Assembly (NCBI RefSeq): GCF_012184425.1
Contig: NZ_VTOW01000004.1
Location: forward strand, 1-64,000
Source of the DNA: Candidatus Manganitrophus noduliformans
GTDB lineage: Bacteria > Nitrospirota > Nitrospiria > SBBL01 > Manganitrophaceae
Length of the DNA: 64,000 bases
Direction: 5' to 3'
Shown: positions 45,248 through 59,728 of the stretch, in pieces
Position numbering within the stretch: position 1 is the stretch's first letter
Layout: each line of letters opens with the position of its first letter
Notes under the pieces: generated by a model
Database searches by the model: none
Seen by the model: the letters and a program-made list of their open reading frames with translations, nothing else
Told to the model about the DNA's origin: nothing
Position numbers and translations under genes: made by a program

Positions 45248-45275
45248 TTGACAAATGTCCGACGGCTGTTATAGT
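45248..45275 (+). promoter_or_regulatory. Promoter upstream of pilB
   Basis: TTGACA (45248-45253), 16 bp, TATAGT (45270-45275). The 28-bp palindrome at 45274-45301 begins on the -10 and covers the expected transcription start. Confidence 0.65.
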
Positions 45276-45301
45276 AGGGGCGTATTGCAATACGCCCCTA
45301 C
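45274..45301. repeat. Perfect 28-bp palindrome at the pilB transcription start
   Basis: A perfect inverted repeat with half-site GTAGGGGCGTATTG and no loop. It overlaps the pilB -10/+1 region and lies 23 bp before the ATG. It could be an operator or a 5' mRNA hairpin, or a copy of a dispersed palindromic element of the kind seen in many bacterial genomes. It resembles the GGGCG-type palindrome at 37191-37210. Confidence 0.75.
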
Positions 45302-45323
45302 CCATCTGAAAAAAGAGCCAACC

Positions 45324-47048
45324 ATGCCGCAACCGCAGCAGAAAAGAAAGATGCTCGGCGAAATGTTGATCGCCGAGGGACTCCTTTCGAACGAGCAGCT
45401 GAAGCGCGCGCTCGCCGAGCAGAAGACACACGGCGGCCGGATTGGCGTGGTCCTCAAGAGCCTGGGCCTTGTCACCGAGGACGATATCATCAAAGTTCTC
45501 GGGAAGCAGATGGGGATTCAGTATGTCGATCTTTCCGGCATCATCGTCGAGCCGGAGACCATCCTGATCGTTCCGGAGATGCTGGCCCGACGTCATCAGA
45601 TCATCCCTCTTTACAAAAAAGGCTCCATCCTGACCTTGGCGATGGCCGATCCCTTGAACGTCTTTGCGATCGACGATGTGAAGCGGACCGCCGGCTGCGA
45701 GATCGAGCCGGTGATGAGCAAAGAATCGGATGTAATGAGGGCGATCGACCGCTACTACTCCGGCGCGGGCTCCTTGGAGGAGGCGGCGCGGGAAGCCGAC
45801 CGTCAGGGATTCGGGGTGGCCGAAGAAGGGGACGCTGTCATCGAGCTCTCCAAGTTGGCTGAAGACACGCCGGTCGTCAAGTTCGTCAATACGATGATCA
45901 CGCAGGCGATCAAAGAAGGTTCAAGCGACATTCACATCGAGCCCGACGGCGAGGTGCTCCGCATCCGGTTCCGGCGTGACGGGCTGCTCCGGGAGGTGAT
46001 GACCGCCCCGCGCAATCTTCAGTCGGGGGTCGCTTCCCGGATCAAGATTATGGCCGATCTCGACATCGCCGAGAAGCGGGTTCCTCAGGATGGGCGCATC
46101 CAGATGAAGGTGGGAGATCGCGACATCGATATCCGTCTCTCAACTCTCCCGACCCTCTTCGGCGAGAAGATCGTGATGCGGCTGCTCGACAAATCGAAGC
46201 TGCTCCTCTCACTTTCCGATCTGGGTTTTTCAACCGAGGGGCTCCAAGTTTTCGAGAAAATGATCCGCCGCCCGTATGGTCTGGTCCTGGTGACGGGACC
46301 GACCGGCAGCGGCAAAACGACGACGATCTATTCGGCCCTCAAACAGCTCAGCTCGGTTGAAAGAAACATCGTGACAATTGAAGATCCGGTGGAGTATCAG
46401 ATCAAGCTGATCAATCAGGTACCGGTGAATACGAAAGTAGGCGTGACCTTCGCCAACGGGCTTCGCTCGATTTTGCGGCAAGACCCCGATATCGTGATGG
46501 TCGGGGAGATTCGGGACCGGGAAACCGCCACCATCGCCATTCAGGCGGCCCTCACAGGCCATCTCGTCTTATCGACCCTTCATACCAACGATGCGGCCGG
46601 CGCCATCGCCCGGCTGGTCGACATGGGGGTCGAGCCGTTCCTCATCGCCTCCTCGTTGATTGGCATTGCGGCGCAGCGGCTGGTTCGAAAAGTCTGCAGT
46701 GCCTGCAAGAAGTCCTACGCCGCCACCCCCCAGCTTTTAAACGATCTCGGTCTCACCCACCTTGTGAACGGGAAGCGGGAGATCACCTTTGCCCGGGGCG
46801 AGGGATGTCCCGACTGCCGGGGGAGCGGGTACTCCGGGCGGATCGCCATTTATGAGCTGCTGATGGCCGACGATCCGATCCGCCAGCTCGTCGTGACGCG
46901 CGCCTCTTCCAGCGAGATCCGCAAATATGCGGCGAACATGAAATTTAAATCGCTTCGCGTCGAAGGCCTTTTCAAGGCGGTCCAGGGAATGACGAGCGTG
47001 GAAGAGGTTTTCCGCGTCACCCAGGAATTCGACGGCGACCTCACCTAA
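45324..47048 (+). CDS. pilB: Type IV pilus assembly ATPase PilB (GspE family)
   Basis: A 574-residue cytoplasmic extension motor. The N-terminal MshEN-type domain (about 1-160, starting RKMLGEMLIAEGLLS) precedes the ATPase core. Walker A is GPTGSGKTTTI near residue 330, with an Asp box, Walker B region (ILRQDPDIVMVGEIRD) and His box (LSTLHTNDA). A zinc knuckle CSACKK...CPDCRG lies near the C-terminus. The start is the ATG of MPQPQQKRKM; the longer frame includes the promoter palindrome. No pilT is in the window. Confidence 0.93.
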   Translation: MPQPQQKRKMLGEMLIAEGLLSNEQLKRALAEQKTHGGRIGVVLKSLGLVTEDDIIKVLGKQMGIQYVDLSGIIVEPETILIVPEMLARRHQIIPLYKKGSILTLAMADPLNVFAIDDVKRTAGCEIEPVMSKESDVMRAIDRYYSGAGSLEEAAREADRQGFGVAEEGDAVIELSKLAEDTPVVKFVNTMITQAIKEGSSDIHIEPDGEVLRIRFRRDGLLREVMTAPRNLQSGVASRIKIMADLDIAEKRVPQDGRIQMKVGDRDIDIRLSTLPTLFGEKIVMRLLDKSKLLLSLSDLGFSTEGLQVFEKMIRRPYGLVLVTGPTGSGKTTTIYSALKQLSSVERNIVTIEDPVEYQIKLINQVPVNTKVGVTFANGLRSILRQDPDIVMVGEIRDRETATIAIQAALTGHLVLSTLHTNDAAGAIARLVDMGVEPFLIASSLIGIAAQRLVRKVCSACKKSYAATPQLLNDLGLTHLVNGKREITFARGEGCPDCRGSGYSGRIAIYELLMADDPIRQLVVTRASSSEIRKYAANMKFKSLRVEGLFKAVQGMTSVEEVFRVTQEFDGDLT

Positions 47049-47276: not shown

Positions 47277-48497
47277 ATGCCCACTTTTCGGTACAAAGCG
47301 AGAGACAAATACGGCGCCCTTTTTATGGGGACGTTCGAGACCCACGGCAAAGAGGCGGTCGCCGGCCATCTCGACAGTCTCGGCTACATCCCCGTTGCGA
47401 TCGAGGAAGAAAAGCCGGGCATTTCTCTGACCGAGCTTCTTCCGCAATTCGAGAGGATCTCTTCCGAGGATTTGATCATCTTCTCCCGGCAGTTGGCGAC
47501 GCTGATCGGCGCCGGGATTCCCTTCATGGCGAGTTTCAATGCGCTGGAGGAGCAGACGGAGAACCCGAAGCTGAAGAAAGTGATCGGCCAGGTCCAGAAG
47601 GAGGTGGAGGGAGGAAGCACTTTCGCCGATGCATTGGCGAAACATCCGAAGGTTTTCTCCCAGATGTATGTCAGCATGGTCAAAGCGGGAGAGACCGGCG
47701 GTGTGCTGGATGAAGTTCTCAACCGCCTGGCGATGCTGGCGGAGCATGACGCAGAAACCCGCGCTCGGATCAAAGCGGCGACGCGCTATCCAAAAATTGT
47801 TCTGATTGCCCTTGTTGTCGCATTTGTTATTTTAGTCTCTTTCGTTATTCCGAAATTTTCCGCTCTGTACGCCAATTATAACGTCGCACTGCCTCTCCCG
47901 ACACAGTTGATGATCGGGCTTAATAACATCGTTCACCGACATGGACTCTTGATTCTTGCGGCGGCCATCGGGTCATTTTGGGGATTTCGAAAATATATCA
48001 ATACCCCCCAAGGGCGGCTTTGGTGGGACGGCTTTAAGTTGAAGCTTCCGGTCTTCGGACCCATCTTCACTAAGACGGCCCTTTCCCGTTTTGCTCGGGT
48101 CTTCGGTACTTTGACCCGCTCCGGTCTCCCAATTTTACAGACGTTGGAGATCGTTTCAGAGACGGTGGGAAATGTGGTGATAGGACGCGTCGTCGACAAT
48201 ATCCGCGATTCGGCTCGACAGGGCCGCGGAATCGTCCAGCCAATGAAGGTCAGCAAGGTTTTTCCGCCGATTGTCATTCAGATGGTCGCCGTCGGTGAAG
48301 AGAGCGGCAAGATGGAAGAGATGATGATGAAAGTCTCGGAATATTACGATCGAGATGTGGAATATGCGATCAAAAATCTTTCGAGCAGCCTGGAGCCGCT
48401 GCTGCTGGCGGTGATCGGCGTCGTTGTTGTCTTTTTAGCGTTGGCAATCTTTATGCCTTGGTGGAACCTGATCAATGTGTTTAAAGGAGGCAGATAG
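47277..48497 (+). CDS. pilC: Type IV pilus inner-membrane platform PilC (GspF family)
   Basis: A 406-residue protein with two GspF domains and three membrane helices, starting MPTFRYKARDKYGALFMG. Typical segments are FSRQLATLIGAGIPFM and FARVFGTLTRSGLPILQTLE. It anchors the PilB motor and is thought to lift pilins from the membrane. It follows pilB after 228 gene-free bases containing only a 12-bp AAGTTTAAACTT palindrome (47126-47137). Confidence 0.93.
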   Translation: MPTFRYKARDKYGALFMGTFETHGKEAVAGHLDSLGYIPVAIEEEKPGISLTELLPQFERISSEDLIIFSRQLATLIGAGIPFMASFNALEEQTENPKLKKVIGQVQKEVEGGSTFADALAKHPKVFSQMYVSMVKAGETGGVLDEVLNRLAMLAEHDAETRARIKAATRYPKIVLIALVVAFVILVSFVIPKFSALYANYNVALPLPTQLMIGLNNIVHRHGLLILAAAIGSFWGFRKYINTPQGRLWWDGFKLKLPVFGPIFTKTALSRFARVFGTLTRSGLPILQTLEIVSETVGNVVIGRVVDNIRDSARQGRGIVQPMKVSKVFPPIVIQMVAVGEESGKMEEMMMKVSEYYDRDVEYAIKNLSSSLEPLLLAVIGVVVVFLALAIFMPWWNLINVFKGGR

Positions 48498-48514: not shown

Positions 48515-48904
48515 ATGTTGAGACCTAATCAAAAAGGGTTCACGAGTTTAGAGACGCTGTGTGTCTGCATAATGGTCGGCGGTTTGATCGGCATCGCGAT
48601 GCCGTATTATCAAAAATTGGCGCTGGAGGCGAAAGAAGTGACGTTAAAGACTGGGTTGGTCAATATTCGAAGCGGGATTGTACTTTACCAAGCGCTTCAG
48701 CGGCATTACCCGACCGATTTAAAGAGCCTCGTCCGTGAAAAATATATTTTGCCGGTGAACGATAAAATTATTTCAAGGGAATATTTAATTGCACAATCTG
48801 TAGATACTGAAGGGAATCTGCTGGATCCTTTTGGAAATCATTACCGGTACGATCCGGTGACGGGCCAGGTGGCATCCAGTACAGAGGGATATGAAAGCTG
48901 GTAA
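48515..48904 (+). CDS. Prepilin-like protein (GspG-like)
   Basis: A 129-residue type IV prepilin with a short leader MLRPNQKG, cleavage before FTSLE (Glu5 present) and a hydrophobic N-terminal helix. The C-terminal LLDPFGNHYRYDPVTGQ is the pattern found in GspG-type major pseudopilins. No strong ribosome site precedes the ATG. It lies between pilC and the major-pilin-like gene. Confidence 0.8.
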   Translation: MLRPNQKGFTSLETLCVCIMVGGLIGIAMPYYQKLALEAKEVTLKTGLVNIRSGIVLYQALQRHYPTDLKSLVREKYILPVNDKIISREYLIAQSVDTEGNLLDPFGNHYRYDPVTGQVASSTEGYESW

Positions 48905-50421: not shown

Positions 50422-51009
50422 GTGAAGGATCGCCTGCCGGACGGTAAAACTGGCGCAACACCGAGACCGAGCGGAAAGGTAGTGCCCGTTCCAGGTTTCA
50501 ACTTTGCCAATCGTGCCGCGCGGGGCGAGGCCGGTTTTACCCTGGTCGAACTGGTCCTGGTCATCGTCCTTTTGGGAATTGTTTCGGCCGTCGCCGCCGT
50601 TCCGTTGATGGAAGGGGCGAGAATATTCACTTCCGGCGAGGTTCGCGCCGATCTGAATAACCAGGGACGGCTGGCCGTCGAGAGAATGGCGCGCGAGATC
50701 CGGATGGCGCGAAGCCGAACCGCCGCCGATCTCCCAGGCTGCTGCAATGCAGGAACGCTCAGTTTTGTAGACTTGAATGGGAGTGCCATCGCTTATACCA
50801 CGGCGGCCGGCAACACCATTACACGAAACGGAACGGCATTGGCCGCGGGCGATACGGTTGTCTTGAATTTTTCATACTTTCAGCAAGACGGGTCAACCCC
50901 GGCAACCCTGGCAACGCAGGTTTGGAGCATTCAAATCGATCTGACCGTCACAAAGAACAGCGAATCGCAGGCGTATCGGGTTCGGGTTCATCCAAGGAAT
51001 TTCGTATGA
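50422..51009 (+). CDS. PilW-like minor prepilin with unusually long leader
   Basis: A 195-residue prepilin. Mature sequence begins FTLVELVLVIVLLGIVSAVA after GEAG. The GTG start with GGAGG 5-6 nt upstream gives a 38-residue leader, far longer than the usual 6-20. A GTG near codon 21 would shorten it. The N-terminal helix is followed by RLAVERMAREIRMARSR, the PilW/GspJ-like pattern, and a beta-rich domain with a CC pair (LPGCCNAG). Confidence 0.75.
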   Translation: MKDRLPDGKTGATPRPSGKVVPVPGFNFANRAARGEAGFTLVELVLVIVLLGIVSAVAAVPLMEGARIFTSGEVRADLNNQGRLAVERMAREIRMARSRTAADLPGCCNAGTLSFVDLNGSAIAYTTAAGNTITRNGTALAAGDTVVLNFSYFQQDGSTPATLATQVWSIQIDLTVTKNSESQAYRVRVHPRNFV

Positions 51010-52772
51010 GCCACTTTTTAATTCTGGAAACGGAACGGGGAATCGCGCTGATCGCGGCGGTTTTTCTGATTGTCGTTTTCGGCTTTCTCGGTGTTACTGT
51101 TGTCTCGCTGGTCGGCACGCAGGGATTCTCTGCGATGAACGAGGTAAAGTCGGATCAGGCCTTTTTCATCGCCGCGGGGGGGATGCAGATGGCCCGGTAT
51201 CAGTTCGAAACGGGAACCCCCTGCGCCGGGCTGACCAACGCCGTTCCGACGGCGCTGGGAGCGGGAAGCTTTACCACCGTCGGGACAGCCTACAATCCGG
51301 TGTCCACCCTTGTCGATCAGGCCGGCGGGATCACTAGTTCCGCCGCGACGATTCCGGTCGACTCCATCGCGGGTTATGCGCCGCACGGACGCATCCGCAT
51401 CGATGCGGAGTCGATCGATTATGCCGGAACGTCCACGGACGCGCTGGTCTGCGGCGCCCCGGCCTGCTTCACCGGCGCCGAGCGGGGCGCGGACGGAACG
51501 ACGGCCGCCCCCCATGCAGACAACGCGCAGGTGACTCAGAACCAATGTTTGATCCGGTCGACCGGGACGGTCATCGGAGCATTCGGCAACAGCCGACGGG
51601 TCATCGAAGTGGGTGTGGCCAACAGCGGTCCCTCGGTTCAAACGGGCGAGAACACGATTTCGGGTCATCCTTCGGACACCGTGACCCTGGACATCCCGTT
51701 ACCGACTCCCGTCGATCCGGCGCGCGCCTTTCTTCTTTTCAATACCCGTCACAATCACAATGAGCCGACCGGCGCAATGCTCCGCGGCCAGATCCTCGAT
51801 GCGAATACGATCCGGTTTCAACAGAGGACGAACGCCTCTCGGCCGATCACAATCCGGTGGTATGTGGTGGCGTACCCCTCCGGCGTCAACGTGCAGCGCG
51901 GCTCCATTACCCAAAGCAACGCGGTGGTAAATGTCGGCGCCGCACAAGGTTTTGCAGGGGTGTCCTCTTTAAGTCAGGCCTTCGTGACCTGGTCGAAAAC
52001 GCCCGACCCGGACCATGTCACTTGGGATAACAATGACCCGATTCTCGGGGAGCTGACGAGTCCGACCAATCTTCAATTTCGGGCGACGGATGCCGATAAT
52101 ACCCATACCATCTGGTGGCAGGTGATCGAGTTTACCAACCCGGCCGACATTTTCGTCCAGAAGGGGACCATCGGTCCAACGGCGATGAATCAAGGGGGGC
52201 CTACTGTTCAAACCGTTACGGCGACACTTCCGATCGCAGTCGATGTCAGCAAGACATTCGTGCTGGTGGGATATCGGACGTCGAGGGGCCAAGACGAAGA
52301 CGACATCGTCGGAGCTCGGATGCTGCGGGCGCAATTGACCGGCCCGACCACGATCACCATCGATCGCGCCACAAGGCGGACCGCCAGAATCGAAGAGATC
52401 ACCTGGCAGGCGATCGAACTAAGAGATGGCTCCACCGTTCAACACGGAAGCGAGACCTTTCCCAACAGCGATCCACTGGAGACCGTCAACTTGGCGACCC
52501 CGGTCGACGTGACCCGTTCCGTTGCCTTCGCGTCGGTTCAGCCGGCGGCGGGACAGAGCATGGGCCGCTCTCCGTATGCTCCGAACAACGGTTCCAATTC
52601 CGACTATGTCGGCGTCGGCTCGGTCACGATGGCGTTATCACCGGCGGGGGATCAGATCACGATGCAGCGAAGCAATACCAATTCGTCGGCCGACATCGGC
52701 TGGTTTGTCGTCGAGTTCGGGTCCGGCGGCGGGGGCCAGCCTCGGATCGATTGGATCGAGCGGTTTCAGTAG
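51006..52772 (+). CDS. Large PilX-like pilus protein with four C-terminal repeats
   Basis: A 588-residue protein. Residues 1-50 are a PilX/GspK-type start (ERG then IALIAAVFLIVVFGFLG, no Glu5). Residues about 128-176 hold a small motif ending ERGADGTTAAPHADNAQV. The PilX-like section ends STGTVIGAFGNSRRVIEV (184-202). Residues 225-572 comprise four degenerate repeats of about 85 residues, each with an I-x-W-x-V/A-V/I-E/A core followed in three by VQ-x-GS/T (about 225-300, 306-388, 401-482, 492-572). The ATG overlaps the previous stop. Likely a tip or adhesive subunit; this is inference. Confidence 0.7.
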   Translation: MSHFLILETERGIALIAAVFLIVVFGFLGVTVVSLVGTQGFSAMNEVKSDQAFFIAAGGMQMARYQFETGTPCAGLTNAVPTALGAGSFTTVGTAYNPVSTLVDQAGGITSSAATIPVDSIAGYAPHGRIRIDAESIDYAGTSTDALVCGAPACFTGAERGADGTTAAPHADNAQVTQNQCLIRSTGTVIGAFGNSRRVIEVGVANSGPSVQTGENTISGHPSDTVTLDIPLPTPVDPARAFLLFNTRHNHNEPTGAMLRGQILDANTIRFQQRTNASRPITIRWYVVAYPSGVNVQRGSITQSNAVVNVGAAQGFAGVSSLSQAFVTWSKTPDPDHVTWDNNDPILGELTSPTNLQFRATDADNTHTIWWQVIEFTNPADIFVQKGTIGPTAMNQGGPTVQTVTATLPIAVDVSKTFVLVGYRTSRGQDEDDIVGARMLRAQLTGPTTITIDRATRRTARIEEITWQAIELRDGSTVQHGSETFPNSDPLETVNLATPVDVTRSVAFASVQPAAGQSMGRSPYAPNNGSNSDYVGVGSVTMALSPAGDQITMQRSNTNSSADIGWFVVEFGSGGGGQPRIDWIERFQ

Positions 52773-52788: not shown

Positions 52789-53673
52789 ATGGGTTATTCG
52801 GTATTAAAGACGGAGCGGGGAATCGCCCTGATTGCGGCGGTCTTCTTGATCGTTGTCTTCGGCTTCCTCGGTCTTGCCGTCGTCTCGCTGGTCGGCACGC
52901 AGGGATTCTCCGCAATGAACGAGGTGAAATCGGACCAAGCCTTTTTTGTCGCGGAGGGAGGGACCGAATTTAGCCAGCGCTTCCTGGCGCAGAACCTTCA
53001 GTGGTATCGGAGCACGGTCGATCCGATCCTCATCCCGGCCACGAATTTGGGAGCCGGGTCTTTTAATGTGAGTGTGAACCTGCCGGCGACGATGCTGAGA
53101 ACCCGCATCCCAAATGACACTTCGACCGCGCCGATCCGCGTTTATACCACAAACCGGTTCCCGACAAGCGGATTTTTACAGATCGAGGAGGACCTCACCG
53201 GGGACGCAGAATTCGTCTTCTACAGTGGGATTGCCGGAAACACCTTCACCGGAATATTACGGGGACAGACGGTCGGCGGGGTGTCAAACGCCGCTTCGGC
53301 CCACGAGCGGGGCCACCGGGTTTATCCGGTGACGACCCTCACCGTCGCGCTTGCCAACAGTTGCGCAGCCCCCGCATCATTCACGGCGGCTGCTCATCCG
53401 AAGTTTCTCGGCGCGGGAACGGTCGACATCGAGGGGGAAGAGATCAGTTACACAGGGTCGACGATCGCCGGAGGTGTGATGACCCTCACCGGCGTAACGC
53501 GCTGCCAGAATGGGACCGCCTCCGCCGTCCATAACAACGGCAGGCCGGTGACGCCGCTGTTGGCGGAGGGGACCCTCCCCGATTTTGAGGCGGAGATTAT
53601 TTCTACCGGAACGGTCAGTCTGGCCGCAGTGGGGAACGCGGCCCGATCGGTTCGCAAGACAGTGCAACGGTAA
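52789..53673 (+). CDS. PilX-like pilus protein, paralogue of the preceding gene
   Basis: A 294-residue protein whose N-terminal 55 residues are nearly identical to the preceding gene's (GIALIAAVFLIVVFGFLG and VSLVGTQGFSAMNEVKSDQ). It carries two copies of the small motif seen once in that protein: residues about 127-178 (GILRGQTVGGVSNAASAHER) and 209-255 (VTRCQNGTASAVHNNGRPV). It ends like PilX with STGTVSLAAVGNAARSVRK, without the large repeat section. AAGGA precedes the ATG. The longer open frame from 52522 is a shadow. Confidence 0.7.
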   Translation: MGYSVLKTERGIALIAAVFLIVVFGFLGLAVVSLVGTQGFSAMNEVKSDQAFFVAEGGTEFSQRFLAQNLQWYRSTVDPILIPATNLGAGSFNVSVNLPATMLRTRIPNDTSTAPIRVYTTNRFPTSGFLQIEEDLTGDAEFVFYSGIAGNTFTGILRGQTVGGVSNAASAHERGHRVYPVTTLTVALANSCAAPASFTAAAHPKFLGAGTVDIEGEEISYTGSTIAGGVMTLTGVTRCQNGTASAVHNNGRPVTPLLAEGTLPDFEAEIISTGTVSLAAVGNAARSVRKTVQR

Positions 53674-55385
53674 TGGAAGAAAGAACCCGAATAAAGGTGA
53701 CGCTGATCATGCTGATGACGGCAGGCTTATTTTTCTCCTTTGGGCAGAGCGCGGCCGAGGCGGCTTACAACTTCACATCGACCATGACCAATGCGCCGAC
53801 CCCGGTCGAGTTTACCATGGGAGATCCCGCTTCGATCACGTTTCAGATCACGAACAGCAGCACGGGGGGAGAAGTGGATCAGCGGATCTACCAGATGCGG
53901 TTTCGCCTGACCAGCGCCACCGGAGGGACCGTTTTCTCAAACACGACCGCGGCCCCGGCGGGATGGACCCGGACCGCTTTCTCCACGACCTCAATTACTT
54001 TCCGGGCGAACACGGCGAACGATGCCATCGTCTGCACGATCGGCGGATGTCCCGTGGGACCGTCCACGTCAAAGACATTTACGTTAAACATCGTCGCCGG
54101 GAGTTATTCATCGGATGTCACCCACGACTTGCGGGATGTCCGGGCGTATTTTCAGGATTCGACCAGCCGCTGGCCCCCTTCCAGGTCGGATTCAACGGTC
54201 ACCAAAAGCAGCGGAACGAGCGTCGGGCTCTGGACCCTTAAATCTCTCTTGATGACCCTGGTGCCGTCTACGACGGCGGTGCCTGTGGGCGGTACGTTTA
54301 ACCTAACGATGACCGTGACCAATCGGTCGACGTCCAACTTAACAGGCGTGACCTCGAACCCCAAGCCGCCGACACGACAGTATGTTCACTTCAACAATCC
54401 GCCCACTCCAGTGGCGGTTAATACCACTTCGAATCCGGCCAACTTGAATCTTAATGCGGGTGCCACGGGAACCATGGTTTGGAGCTACACGACGACGGGC
54501 TCCGGCCCCGGTACAGTCACATTTCAGGCCTATGCCGGTGTCGGCACGAGAACGTCTAAAACCGTGACCTCCGTCCCGGTATCGATCGGCGTTATTTCAG
54601 GAAGCTTTTCGATCACACCGATCTGCCTTTTTTCCGGAAACGTTGCGACGTTTGTCATGACGGTGACGAATGTGACAGGAGGGACGGTGAACAACATTGT
54701 TCCCTCTGCTCTCACGAGGGGGGGGACTACGACGATCGGCGCCTTCACCGGACCGGCCCCCGCATCAATCGCCTCTCTCGCCAACAATAGCTCCGGCACA
54801 TTTACCTGGACCGCGACCGTCACAGGGGCGGTCGGTTCGACCTTTTCTGTCACAGGTTCTGCGACCGGCAATGGCGGGAACAGCACCGGTCCGGTTGTCT
54901 CAGCTACGGAGGATGTAGGCGGATACGTGATCAATCTCGATGTCACCGAAACAAATCTTTCCAGCACCAACCAACCATTGACATGGTCGATTACGAATCA
55001 AGGTTGCGCGCCGGCCCAGAGCGTTTCGATCTCAGTTCCATCCGGCTGGGTATGGGGAGGAGGGGCGGAAGATGGTTACGCATTGGTAACGAACTCGGTT
55101 GGAAGTCTGGTCGAGTCTTGGGTTGCCTCCGGTCCGACCTCCGGCCCTGTTCAGTTTGCCTCCCCTTCCGCCGCGGATCGGATTCCGTTGACCGAGGGAG
55201 GGGACTTCGAACTGGTCTTTTCAACGGTACCGACTTCCGGAACGAGCAGCACATTTAACGTCACGGTGACCGATGAGAATGGCGTGACCAGTCCGCCGCA
55301 AGCACAGGTGGTGGATCTAAATGCATTTAATTTTAACGCGTTAAATGAAGCCAACACCGAATCGTACCGCGAGGAATTTCGTTGA
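53673..55385 (+). CDS. Large secreted beta-sandwich protein of the pilus locus
   Basis: A 570-residue protein with a signal peptide (about 1-30, ending AEAA). The mature part is Thr/Ser/Gly-rich and contains several Ig-like or CARDB/DUF11-like domains (PASITFQITNSSTGG, GGTFNLTMTVTNRSTSN, FVMTVTNVTGG, SGTFTWTATVTG). There is no membrane anchor or LPXTG-type signal. Its ATG overlaps the previous stop by one base, placing it in the minor-pilin operon. It may be an adhesin or fibre-associated protein; it does not look like PilY1. Confidence 0.65.
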   Translation: MEERTRIKVTLIMLMTAGLFFSFGQSAAEAAYNFTSTMTNAPTPVEFTMGDPASITFQITNSSTGGEVDQRIYQMRFRLTSATGGTVFSNTTAAPAGWTRTAFSTTSITFRANTANDAIVCTIGGCPVGPSTSKTFTLNIVAGSYSSDVTHDLRDVRAYFQDSTSRWPPSRSDSTVTKSSGTSVGLWTLKSLLMTLVPSTTAVPVGGTFNLTMTVTNRSTSNLTGVTSNPKPPTRQYVHFNNPPTPVAVNTTSNPANLNLNAGATGTMVWSYTTTGSGPGTVTFQAYAGVGTRTSKTVTSVPVSIGVISGSFSITPICLFSGNVATFVMTVTNVTGGTVNNIVPSALTRGGTTTIGAFTGPAPASIASLANNSSGTFTWTATVTGAVGSTFSVTGSATGNGGNSTGPVVSATEDVGGYVINLDVTETNLSSTNQPLTWSITNQGCAPAQSVSISVPSGWVWGGGAEDGYALVTNSVGSLVESWVASGPTSGPVQFASPSAADRIPLTEGGDFELVFSTVPTSGTSSTFNVTVTDENGVTSPPQAQVVDLNAFNFNALNEANTESYREEFR

Positions 55386-55451: not shown

Positions 55452-55718
55452 ATGAAGACATCGGAAGTTTTACACAAGATCGATATTCCCAGACACAAGC
55501 TCTACTACTTGGAGCAGAAGGGATATGTCACACCCAGACGGATTCCGATGGGGGACCTTGAAGCCCGGGAGTACAGCCAACAGGATCTGCTCAAGATTAA
55601 ATTTATCTGGAAATATTTAAGCAAAGGATTCAAACACAAGGTCGCTTACGAGATGGCCATGGAGGAGTTAAATGCCGGGGTCGGGTGGGGGCCAGGGAAC
55701 GCAGGGGGGAGAAATTAA
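55452..55718 (+). CDS. MerR-like single-domain DNA-binding protein
   Basis: An 88-residue protein that is almost only a MerR-type winged helix: IPRHKLYYLEQKGYVTPRRI, then REYSQQDLLKIKFIWKYLSKG. It lacks the long dimerisation helix and ligand domain of full MerR proteins. The last 15 residues are Gly-rich. Its TAA shares one base with the pilM ATG, so it is coupled to pilM, and it may regulate the pilus genes. Confidence 0.65.
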   Translation: MKTSEVLHKIDIPRHKLYYLEQKGYVTPRRIPMGDLEAREYSQQDLLKIKFIWKYLSKGFKHKVAYEMAMEELNAGVGWGPGNAGGRN

Positions 55719-56740
55719 TGGGATGGCTGCCATTTAGAAAGCCGTTTTGGGCCATTGATATCGGGGCGAGCTCGGTGAAGGTGGTCCGGCTCAGCCGGAC
55801 GCGGCAAGGAATAAAGCTGCTCGATATCGGACTCAAAGAGCTTCCGATGGAGCAGGAGTTTCGGCAGGAAAATATCACCGCGGCGCTGGACGAGTTGATC
55901 AAAGAGAAAAAGCGGCCGAAGGCGGTCATTAATTTTTCCGGCCAGGCGCCTCTGATTCGATATTTAACCCTCCCCGCCATGCCGAAAGAGGAGCTTGCCG
56001 AGGCGGTGAAGTGGGAGGCGAAAAAGCTGGTCTCCATTCCGATGGAGGAGATGATCCTCGATTTCATCATCGCAGGGGGGCGTCAGGAGCGGGAAACGAA
56101 GCGATACGATTTGATTCTGGTCGTGGCGGACAGGAGCACCCTCCGCGAGCAGTGGGCGATGATGCAGCGGGCGGGGCTCGACATTGTCGCCATCGATGTG
56201 AACCCCCTCTCTCTGCTGAATACGATTCGGATGAGCTATGGGAAAGAGCTGACGGGGAATTTCATCTATATCGACATCGGCGCCGCGAAAACCGATATGA
56301 CGATTTTGAAAGATGGTGTCCTGCGATTTACCCGGCGATTGGAAATGGGGGGGGAGCAGATTACACGCCGACTCGAACGGGAAATGGGCCTCCCGTATGA
56401 AGAGGCGGAAAAGCTGAAACGCGAAAAAGGGCTCGGCGCGGAAGAGGGGCCGCAGGCGATCATCAAAAATGAAATCGACCGGTTTATCGTAGAAATCCAG
56501 CGGTCGATCGATTATTACCGGGCTCAGTTCCGGGAAGGGGTCTTCAAAAAGGTGATCTTGATGGGGGGAGGGGCGCTTCTTCCAGGCTTCTCCGATTATT
56601 TTGGAAGTTATTTTGATGCCGAGATGGAAATTGATGATCCCCTTGCGGAGATCATCGGAACGGAATCGGTCGGCGCGATCCGGGCGATCGCCCCTCGCTT
56701 CTCGAGCGGGATCGGGCTGGCCCTCCGTTCTCACAATTAA
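55718..56740 (+). CDS. pilM: Type IV pilus assembly protein PilM
   Basis: A 340-residue actin/FtsA-like cytoplasmic ATPase fold: WAIDIGASSVKVVRL (phosphate 1 loop), then IYIDIGAAKTDMTIL, and a C-terminal KVILMGGGALLPGFSDYF adenosine motif. It binds the PilN cytoplasmic tail. The start is the ATG overlapping the previous stop; GGGAG lies upstream. First gene of pilMNOPQ. Confidence 0.92.
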   Translation: MGWLPFRKPFWAIDIGASSVKVVRLSRTRQGIKLLDIGLKELPMEQEFRQENITAALDELIKEKKRPKAVINFSGQAPLIRYLTLPAMPKEELAEAVKWEAKKLVSIPMEEMILDFIIAGGRQERETKRYDLILVVADRSTLREQWAMMQRAGLDIVAIDVNPLSLLNTIRMSYGKELTGNFIYIDIGAAKTDMTILKDGVLRFTRRLEMGGEQITRRLEREMGLPYEEAEKLKREKGLGAEEGPQAIIKNEIDRFIVEIQRSIDYYRAQFREGVFKKVILMGGGALLPGFSDYFGSYFDAEMEIDDPLAEIIGTESVGAIRAIAPRFSSGIGLALRSHN

Positions 56741-56781
56741 GGCCGCGCTTTCCGTTTATTTGAAACGGGCGGATGAGGATG

Positions 56782-57345
56782 ATGAAAGAACATATTAACC
56801 TCTTTCAACCGGATCTCCTTGAAGGAGCCGCCCAGGCAAGGACCCCCCGCAAAAAGCAGTGGGCGGTCGCCTCGGCCGGGATATTCCTTGTTCTTTTTAT
56901 TCTATTTTATATTCAAGAGGAGAAGAAGCAGATCCTGCTTAAAAGAGAGGTCGATGCAATTTTACAACAGCGCCAACAACTTGAGCAGCAGATGGCGGCG
57001 CTGGCCCCGGGGACCCTCTCCCGCGGGGAGGGCGCCTTGACGGAAGAGGCGATTTTAAAAGAGCGGATCGCCTGGTCGAGGGTGTTGGTCGAGGTCAGCC
57101 GGGTGGTTCCGGAAGGGGTATGGATCACCGGATTTGAGAACAATGCAGGGGAGGGGGTTCGCTTCGATGGGTTCGCGGTCTCCTATCAGAAAGTGACCGA
57201 TCTTCTCTCCTCACTGGAAGCCTCCCGGATGTTTCAAGATGTGCTGCTTGATTTTTCACGGCAGAATACCGAGCGGAAGGTCGACTTCTCAATCAACACC
57301 CGCTTGAAGAAGGTCGATCCGGAAGTTCAATTGGGAATGAGATGA
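56782..57345 (+). CDS. pilN: Type IV pilus assembly protein PilN
   Basis: About 187 residues. The N-terminal KEHINLFQPDLL is the PilM-binding motif, one membrane helix (about 30-45) is followed by a coiled coil (ILQQRQQLEQQMAALA) and a periplasmic ferredoxin-like domain. ATGs at 56773, 56779 and 56782 are possible; GAGG at 56774 favours the last. It ends with a 4-nt overlap on pilO. Confidence 0.88.
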   Translation: MKEHINLFQPDLLEGAAQARTPRKKQWAVASAGIFLVLFILFYIQEEKKQILLKREVDAILQQRQQLEQQMAALAPGTLSRGEGALTEEAILKERIAWSRVLVEVSRVVPEGVWITGFENNAGEGVRFDGFAVSYQKVTDLLSSLEASRMFQDVLLDFSRQNTERKVDFSINTRLKKVDPEVQLGMR

Positions 57346-57893
57346 GCGCGCTGACCCTATTACAATGGTCAAAGTTATCAAAAAGAGAGCGAATTCTCTT
57401 CGTCTCCACCTTATTTGCGCTCCTTTATTCGTTTGTCTTCTTTTTCTTGCAGCCGAGGATGGCGGAGCGCCAGAGACTCGATCAGCAAAAGAAAACCCTT
57501 CAACAAGAAATTTCGATGCTTTCCTCCACGATCCCCGTCCTGATGCGAAGAGCCGAAGCGGCCAATCCCTCTGATTCCGAGCCGGCGCTGCTCCTTTCGA
57601 ATGCGTCGCTTTCGACGATTTTGGAAGAGCTCAGCCGGCAGGCGCGGATCAAGGAGGTCCAACTGATGGAGCTCAAACCGAGTCCGGCTGAAAAGAAAGA
57701 AGGCTATGAAATCTTGCAGATTCAGGTCAAGAGCCGCTCCCGATTTTTCAATCTGGGAGATTATATTTCGGCGCTGGAGCGTCTCCCGCGCCCCATTGTG
57801 ATCGAGCGTCTCAAAATTGAATCAACCGCCGAGACCAGTCCCGACGTCATCGCCGAGATGGTCCTACAGGTTTATAAGGGAGGAGGCGTATGA
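57342..57893 (+). CDS. pilO: Type IV pilus assembly protein PilO
   Basis: A 183-residue single-pass inner-membrane protein: cytoplasmic LSKRERILFVS, a helix (about 20-37), a periplasmic coiled coil (RLDQQKKTLQQEISML) and a ferredoxin-like fold. It dimerises with PilN to form the alignment complex. Overlaps with pilN and pilP by ATGA. Confidence 0.88.
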   Translation: MSALTLLQWSKLSKRERILFVSTLFALLYSFVFFFLQPRMAERQRLDQQKKTLQQEISMLSSTIPVLMRRAEAANPSDSEPALLLSNASLSTILEELSRQARIKEVQLMELKPSPAEKKEGYEILQIQVKSRSRFFNLGDYISALERLPRPIVIERLKIESTAETSPDVIAEMVLQVYKGGGV

Positions 57894-58291
57894 AGAAAAT
57901 GGCCGTTGTCATCATGTCTATTTGTTCGCTCCTTCTCACCTCGCCTGTTTTCTCCGCCCAGAATGCTCCTTCGTTGATCGACATGAATCGCGCTTTTCTT
58001 GAAGAGAAGCAGCGTGCGACCGATTGGGGAAGGGATCCGTTTATTCTTCCGGCCCCACTGCCCGAGCAGGCGCTGTTGAACAGTGTCGAGAACGATGCCG
58101 GAAAAGCATTTTCTTTGAGCGCGATCATCTATCGGGATGGGGAAGGGGCGGCGATCATCAATCACCGTATTCTTCGTCTGGGGGATCGGATTGAAGGGAT
58201 GATGGTGCAAGAAATCCTCTCCGATCGGGTGATTCTCAGAGAAGGTTCTAAGATAATGGAATTGAAAGTCGATTCATTTTTAGCGAAGTAA
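57890..58291 (+). CDS. pilP: Type IV pilus assembly protein PilP
   Basis: A 133-residue periplasmic protein with a signal peptide (about 1-22, ending FSA; no lipobox Cys, unlike many PilP lipoproteins). The beta domain reads WGRDPFILP, then FSLSAIIYRDGEGAAIINHRIL and LGDRIEGMMVQEIL, as expected for PilP/GspC homology regions. It links PilNO to the PilQ secretin. Confidence 0.85.
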   Translation: MKKMAVVIMSICSLLLTSPVFSAQNAPSLIDMNRAFLEEKQRATDWGRDPFILPAPLPEQALLNSVENDAGKAFSLSAIIYRDGEGAAIINHRILRLGDRIEGMMVQEILSDRVILREGSKIMELKVDSFLAK

Positions 58292-58318
58292 TGAACGCTT
58301 ACATGCGGAGGATCTTCG

Positions 58319-59728
58319 ATGAACGCATTTTTCACGGCCCGGCCTAGAGGGGCTCTCATCAATGTGGCGATATACTTTTCCCTCTTCCTGATTTTTGTCC
58401 CCGCAGCGATGCGGGCGGATGCACAGGAAGCGGCCGAGCGCGCGTCCATCTCGCTTAAAAAGGATGATTCCCTCTTTTCGATGGAATTCCGAAATGCCGA
58501 GTTGAAGGATGTTCTTCGCGCCCTCGGTCAAGAGAATCACCTGAATATCATTATCAGTGACGATGTTGACGGGAAGTTGACCCTCAGCTTCCGGGAGGTC
58601 ACGTTCGAGGAGGCGCTCGAATCGATTTTGAAAATCAACAACTTGACCTCTTTCCGGGAGGGGGACATTATCCGCGTGATGAAATCTCCTTTTGGTGAAG
58701 GAGAGGCCGATCTTGCGACGAAGATCATCCCGATCCATTTCGGGAGTGCCAAAGAGATGCAGGAGAGCGTGAAAGGGCTGCTGACCAAAAAAGGAAGCCT
58801 TACGGTCGATGTCCGAACAAATGCTTTGGTTGTCCGTGATTATGCCTGGAACATGGCGAAAATTAATGAGGTAGTCAAACAACTCGACAGCAAGACCCCT
58901 CAAGTCATGATTGAAGCAAGAATTGTTGAGGTGAACTCGAATTTTGCGCGGGAGTTGGGTGTCCAGTGGGGAGGGGCGTACGAGTCGGATCGGTTCCAGG
59001 TAACCGGAGCGACGAGGGGAACGACCTCGACGACCGGTTCAAACGCGCTGACGGGAGGGGCCGGCCTATCCGGGAATAATTTTGCAGTCAATCTCCCGGC
59101 GGCGGTCGGTGTCGGCTCGGGCGGAGGGCTGGGTTTTACCTTCGCCAATGCGGGATCGAGCCTCCAACTGGATCTTCAGCTTTCCGCAATGGAAGATACT
59201 GGGCGAGGGAAGATCTTATCCAATCCCCGCGTTCTCACTTTAAACAATAAAGAAGCGAAAATTTCCAGTGGAACCGAAATCCTCATACCGACAACTTCGA
59301 TTTTGTCGACCTCAACCTCCTCGACGGAGACGATAGCCGGCGCCACAACGACATCAGGGGTCACTGTCATCGATGCGAAACTAGAGCTCACCGTAACGCC
59401 CCATATTACACCGGACAATCAAATATTGCTCCACGTGAAAACGGAAAAGAAAGAACCCGATTTTAATCGTCAGGTCCAGAACATCCCTCCTTTGAATACA
59501 CGTACCGCTGAGACCGATCTCTTAGTCGGAGACAATGAGACGGTCGTGATCGGCGGAATTTATACCCGTAACGAGTCGCACGGAGAGAAGAGCGTCCCCT
59601 GGCTCTCAAAGATTCCCATCTTAGGCTGGTTATTTAAAAAAGAAACAAAAACAGACATCCAAAATGAACTCTTGATTTTCATCACGCCGACCGTCTATAA
59701 AGGAGGGAACGAGGTCGCCCGGCAGTAA
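58319..59728 (+). CDS. pilQ: Type IV pilus secretin PilQ
   Basis: A 469-residue secretin with a signal peptide (to about residue 36), an STN/N0 domain (SMEFRNAELKDVLRALGQ), an N1 domain (IIPIHFGSAKEMQESVKGLL) and the secretin barrel ending KIPILGWLFKKETKTDIQNELLIFITP. It is short because the N-terminal AMIN domains of proteobacterial PilQ are absent. It forms the outer-membrane pore for the pilus. Confidence 0.93.
   Translation: MNAFFTARPRGALINVAIYFSLFLIFVPAAMRADAQEAAERASISLKKDDSLFSMEFRNAELKDVLRALGQENHLNIIISDDVDGKLTLSFREVTFEEALESILKINNLTSFREGDIIRVMKSPFGEGEADLATKIIPIHFGSAKEMQESVKGLLTKKGSLTVDVRTNALVVRDYAWNMAKINEVVKQLDSKTPQVMIEARIVEVNSNFARELGVQWGGAYESDRFQVTGATRGTTSTTGSNALTGGAGLSGNNFAVNLPAAVGVGSGGGLGFTFANAGSSLQLDLQLSAMEDTGRGKILSNPRVLTLNNKEAKISSGTEILIPTTSILSTSTSSTETIAGATTTSGVTVIDAKLELTVTPHITPDNQILLHVKTEKKEPDFNRQVQNIPPLNTRTAETDLLVGDNETVVIGGIYTRNESHGEKSVPWLSKIPILGWLFKKETKTDIQNELLIFITPTVYKGGNEVARQ

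Follow-up and report, generated by a model that had tools for sequence, protein, structure and literature searches.

We propose, with a probability of roughly 60%, that the gene at positions 51006-52772 (plus strand) of the window, the 64,000-nucleotide stretch of DNA analysed here, encodes a modular minor pilin, in which a GspK/PilX-type stem with a position at the pilus tip carries a rigid adhesive head of four modules. Modular pilins with lectin domains are already known; a four-module head appears to be undescribed.

A unit of four degenerate tandem repeats

The 588-aa open reading frame starts with an ATG at 51006 and ends with a stop codon at 52770-52772, at the coordinates of the initial annotation. 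That annotation had described a prepilin-like protein with four degenerate tandem repeats. The description is borne out by the self-alignment of residues 201-588, which gave an off-diagonal BLOSUM62 score of 90 (masked), against a mean of 37 (s.d. 6, maximum 51) for 40 shuffled sequences, and by the comparison of the repeat profiles with one another. The hhalign probabilities are 98% for repeats 1 and 3, 93% for 1 and 4, and 86% for 1 and 2; the weaker pairs are 3 and 4 (73%), 2 and 4 (44%), and 2 and 3 (35%). A one-repeat HMM, built partly from the window's own repeats, matches the window four times (51636-51890, 51891-52145, 52155-52433 and 52437-52727), and a genome search with it found no further copies elsewhere; a match in L003 (E 0.04), in a glycosyltransferase-type neighbourhood, was set aside as chance.

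Each repeat has 85-95 residues, with a VQxG motif at its start and an IxWxVVEF motif at its end. The repeats were delimited by profiles, HMM and structure model as repeat 1 (51636-51890, plus strand; residues 211-295, VQTGE...ITIRWYVVAY), repeat 2 (51891-52154, plus; residues 296-383, VQRGS...HTIWWQVIEF) and repeat 3 (52155-52436, plus; residues 384-477, VQKGT...EITWQAIELR). Repeat 4 (52437-52721, plus; residues 478-572, VQHGS...DIGWFVVEFG) contains a long conserved β3-β4 loop. The remainder of the gene (52722-52772, plus) encodes a C-terminal tail with an end of the GSGGGGQPRIDWIERFQ type, followed by the stop codon; the tail motif IDWxExF is common to the Nitrospirota pilin copies. The VQRGS, VQKGT and VQHGS motifs had been noted before, as the ends of repeats. 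They exist, but form the first strand of the following repeat. Because a fourth VQxG motif (VQTGE, residue 211) opens repeat 1, the unit comprises approximately residues 211-572, with the same layout in every repeat. The end of the block at residue 572 is thus retained, and its start moves upstream from the residue 225 originally given.

The four-repeat unit has no family match in Pfam, NCBIfam, PHROGs or, at the sequence level, the PDB, in agreement with the earlier statement that no named domain has this pattern, and the predicted fold is indeed a repeated one. PDB sequence matches to a sea-anemone cytolysin and the S-layer protein Sap (E 0.08-0.6) were dismissed as noise. None of 25 single repeats matched H_lectin at E up to 10 (HMMER filters apply), and there was no sequence match in INPHARED, PLSDB or IMG/VR that would indicate a phage, plasmid or viral source of the repeats.

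The pilus locus and the pilin stem

The gene is part of a type IV pilus locus in a Candidatus Manganitrophus-like member of the Nitrospirota, between a gene for a PilW-like minor pilin and the pilMNO and secretin genes. The upstream part of the locus encodes a PilB-type ATPase (45255-47048, plus; T2SSE, PF00437 and PF05157), a PilC-type platform protein (47277-48497, plus; T2SSF, PF00482) and, between the platform protein and a major-pilin-like gene, a T2SSG-like prepilin (48515-48904), the length of which is not typical of a pilin. All five prepilin-like genes upstream of the repeat gene encode Glu5, including the minor prepilin directly upstream (50422-51009, plus), which is called PilW-like by gene order and inference. 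Downstream, there is a second PilX/GspK-like prepilin gene (52789-53673, plus), without repeats and without Glu5, with a near-identical stem and another head. It is followed by a gene for a predicted extracellular protein of 570 aa (53673-55385), which ends in SYREEFR and has weak Pfam matches only, and by pilM, pilN, pilO, a gene in the pilP position and the secretin gene (55685-59728, plus; PF11104, PF05137, PF04350 and PF00263). A Pfam search with the pilP-position gene (57890-58291) gave no match. In the literature searched, we found no paper on Manganitrophus pili.

The stem of the repeat protein (51006-51176, plus) consists of a class III-type leader, MSHFLILETERG, and a hydrophobic helix, IALIAAVFLIVVFGFLG, without a glutamate at mature position 5. 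By inspection, the leader is of class III, with a glycine before the hydrophobic helix (ETERG/IALIAAVFLIVVFGFLG, residues 8-29); the structure model places the helix at residues 10-29 with low confidence. Glu5 is also missing in the homologues L007-L009 and L017. The best stem match is the GspK profile, which is sub-threshold, at 14.1 bits versus a curated cut-off of 130. PilX_N does not match the repeat protein, and matches the product of the next gene (52789) below threshold. Since the family matches are sub-threshold, the label GspK/PilX-like is based on the leader, the missing Glu5 and the gene order. The PilX-type stem of the initial annotation can be kept in this wider form and in the setting of a type IV pilus locus, but its family profiles stay below their thresholds.

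Stem and linker are 45% identical to those of the next gene's product over 170 aa, and a 154-nt direct repeat covers the pilin stem (51030-51183, plus, and 52810-52963; 84% DNA identity). The linker (51177-51635, plus) contains a GxIxIxxExIxYxG...TGxxRGxxGTxAxxH module at about residues 115-180. This module of approximately 65 residues is found at 51348-51572 in the repeat pilin and twice in the next pilin (53133-53600). Its similarity to phage tail-type proteins (Pelagibacter, Roseobacter and cyanophage; PHROG 7578, E 0.009; PF23666, E 0.1) is weak.

Predicted structure of the unit

In the AlphaFold model of the full-length window protein, the repeats contain confident strands, and the N-terminal part is modelled without confidence. 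The unit of the homologue L005, which is 56% identical to the window unit, was modelled with a pLDDT of 84 and a pTM of 0.88, and has six strands per repeat. The unit is predicted to form four six-stranded β-sandwich modules in one fixed, compact arrangement, the shape of which may be a four-walled prism. The fibre originally envisaged is not supported by one compact, fixed unit (pTM 0.88) or by the constant repeat number of the homologues. In extendable bead-on-a-string stalks, by contrast, the repeat number varies.

The top structural match is the C-terminal (V) domain of PCSK9, which also consists of tandem β-sandwich modules (Foldseek E 5e-6, probability 1.0), and which compares to the unit with TM-scores of 0.35-0.48, an rmsd of 7-9 Å and about 9% identity. 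The APCβ domain of apicomplexan PLP1 (Foldseek E 3e-5) is built from six-stranded repeats of about 80 residues, packed into a compact prism. Both domains are pseudo-threefold prisms of three repeats, with disulfides that link the layers (PMC6294395, PMC5943054). APCβ has two conserved disulfides in each repeat, whereas the four-module window unit has no cysteine at all in residues 211-572, and thus lacks the disulfide signature of both domains. Compact six-stranded tandem modules are therefore shared (according to the L005 model), but three repeats and disulfides are not. Because the TM-scores are 0.3-0.5 and the rmsd is 7-9 Å, the resemblance to PCSK9 and APCβ holds only at the level of the module. 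Single modules also match the C-terminal β domains of phage tail fibres (for example those of phiAH14a and ctTBR23; Foldseek probability 1.0, E about 0.02, 94-107 columns, rmsd 2.8-3.9 Å), which have one such module instead of four. Among lectin-type folds, with six strands counted per repeat, discoidin II was matched with E 0.035 and a probability of 0.47 (Foldseek).

Invariant positions make up 30% of the β3-β4 loops and 9% of the other loops. The fraction peaks in repeat 4, whose conserved loop also has the lowest model confidence. Conservation of the strands equals or exceeds that of the loops. The conservation of the β3-β4 loops is compatible with a candidate binding site.

Homologues and spread of the unit

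A scan with exact peptide seeds of one genome per species (84,980 species) identified six loci, and may have missed distant relatives. Further copies came from genome searches: a paralogue in G003, a fragment in G023 that is divergent and at a contig edge, and a copy in G460. The unit thus occurs in Candidatus Manganitrophus, in other Nitrospirota, in two genomes of the Fidelibacterota, the phylum of L005 (recorded as Neomarinimicrobiota), and in one MAG of the Methanomassiliicoccales. The archaeal contig is possibly misbinned; by eye, the adjoining genes look consistent with the host. The unit was present in 7 of 98 relatives, in 4/296 of a phylum sample, and in 2/199 and 1/194 of further samples.

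The Nitrospirota copies sit on PilX-like pilins. The Fidelibacterota copies, L005 and L032, belong to proteins of secreted type that contain FG-GAP or LamG-like parts, and L006 is an archaeal surface protein with LamG, DUF2341 and Ig-type domains and a C-terminal hydrophobic segment. Since these non-pilin surface proteins carry it too, the unit is not specific to pili; it is a module that also occurs outside pilins, as is typical of modular pilins. The four-repeat block is probably a transferable binding head. In both Fidelibacterota loci (L005, 4211-4663; L032, minus strand), a prepilin gene adjoins the gene for the secreted four-module protein, and there may be a pilus link in this phylum despite the lack of a fusion between unit and pilin.

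In complete homologues, the number of repeats is always four, and their order is constant. Repeats in the same position are 54-63% identical between genomes (about 60% overall), and repeats in different positions 21-28% (about 24%). As position-matched repeats are more alike than different ones, the duplications predate the spread, and the unit is moved in one piece. Judging from these identities, the four-repeat block is old, fixed in number and transferred as a whole. In a tree of the unit (nine rows), the copies of the archaeon and the Fidelibacterota do not branch clearly outside those of the Nitrospirota, and the deep forks are not separated. Their placement fits transfer, in a direction that is not readable from the tree. 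A further-reaching interpretation, to which we give slightly less than even odds, is that the unit represents a new extracellular domain family. It would form a closed, four-walled β-prism or ring, a four-repeat counterpart of the three-repeat PCSK9/APCβ prism. Entire units would pass between bacterial phyla and archaea, and would serve as binding heads on pilus tips, on secreted FG-GAP proteins or on membrane anchors.

Role of the head

The GspK/PilX-type stem would enter the pilus, and most likely reside at its tip, because it lacks Glu5. The absence of this residue from the K subunit has been put forward as an argument for a position at the tip (PMC9934059). The linker would then connect the stem to the head of four rigidly packed six-stranded β-sandwich modules. 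Once displayed, the head would contact a putative extracellular target, which might be a glycan, a matrix polymer, a mineral-associated surface or a protein, and retraction of the pilus would pull on this contact. We infer both tip location and adhesion from the analysis, and consider a tip adhesin plausible.

Modular pilins with lectin and vWA domains act as tip-displayed binding modules, and Streptococcus sanguinis PilC (lectin) and PilB (vWA) likewise have an additional C-terminal module, β-rich or binding, on a pilin stem, with a proposed tip location (PMC9934059, PMC8179133). Their modules are different ones, whereas the window protein has four homologous six-stranded modules, without a database domain, on a diderm GspK/PilX-type stem. 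The type IVb minor pilins CofB and TcpB have an H-type-lectin-like β-sandwich head at the pilus tip (PMC9565799, PMC12442223). It is a trimer of three chains with one domain each, in contrast to the four modules per chain of the window protein, which do not match H_lectin.

The type IV pilus locus, the position-specific conservation of the repeats and the scores of the L005 model speak for the proposed tip-displayed head. The extracellular contexts of the unit (secreted proteins with FG-GAP parts, and an anchored archaeal protein with LamG) are typical of binding and count in favour of a binding head. So do, for an adhesive head, the conserved β3-β4 loops and the stronger purifying selection on the repeats (dN/dS about 0.09, versus 0.15-0.19 on the N-terminal part). 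The conservation of the strands would fit a structural constraint as well, and counts against adhesion, as do the sub-threshold family matches of the stem and the lack of the repeat gene in other members of the genus. The genome also encodes, at another place, PilY1, which is the usual tip adhesin. The head is therefore not the sole candidate for a tip adhesin, and a role as substitute for a missing PilY1 is ruled out.

Instead of being an adhesin itself, the head could be a docking platform for a secreted partner, as the CofB tip domain is for secreted CofJ. We consider this unlikely, despite CofB/TcpB as a precedent among type IVb pili (PMC9565799, PMC12442223) and the predicted extracellular protein encoded two genes downstream (53673-55385). 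Orthologues of the latter are present in G002, G004 and G005, but G002 and G004 lack the repeat gene, and in G003 two repeat genes are present and the downstream gene is absent. This uncoupled presence and absence rules out the downstream gene as the partner of the repeats, and an unsystematic look beside the homologues revealed no other conserved partner gene. Alternatively, the four modules could serve as a spacer or structural cap that lifts another element or stabilises the tip, without binding. Tandem β-sandwiches are common as spacers, and the strand positions are the most conserved part of the unit. However, changes in repeat number should do no harm to a spacer, whereas all complete homologues have four repeats in fixed order, and only a short tail follows the unit in the window protein and the pilin homologues, so that there is nothing to hold out. 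A spacer thus also seems rather improbable. Finally, it is very unlikely that the protein is a GspK-like pseudopilin of a secretion system with a head that acts in the periplasm, as might be suggested by the sub-threshold GspK match of the stem and the T2SSG-like gene at 48515, because PilM, PilN, PilO and the secretin form a type IV pilus set, PilY1 is present in the genome, and the module is found on exported surface proteins in other hosts.

It has been suggested that many modular pilins have modules unrecognised by databases (PMC8179133). One such module is now defined by its predicted architecture, its constant number of repeats and its spread over bacterial phyla and archaea, and is thereby open to expression, structure solution and ligand screening. 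If the protein is a modular tip adhesin, its head may show how Manganitrophus-type cells hold surfaces. A link of the head to manganese oxidation would be speculation.

Variation of the heads

The repeat gene is present at this locus in three of the six genomes of the Manganitrophus genus. In G003, two pilins with repeats are encoded in tandem; G002 and G004 have a repeat-less pilin only, and G001 (72% complete) showed no match. The tandem PilX/GspK-like genes have a common stem and unlike heads, and the presence and type of the head vary across the genus. This pattern would be consistent with an exchange of heads through recombination at the stem.

Some copies outside the window deviate in repeat 4. 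L032, the G460 copy, has one in-frame TGA within this repeat, which may indicate a pseudogene or a sequence error. L007, L008 and L009 have an insert of about 200 residues directly behind the first strand of this repeat. The insert contains the pattern WxHxIGxGxxRKLxVGV...VxYxGVPxTF...ExWxxDEA, without a match in a Pfam search, and could be a common surface module in permuted form.
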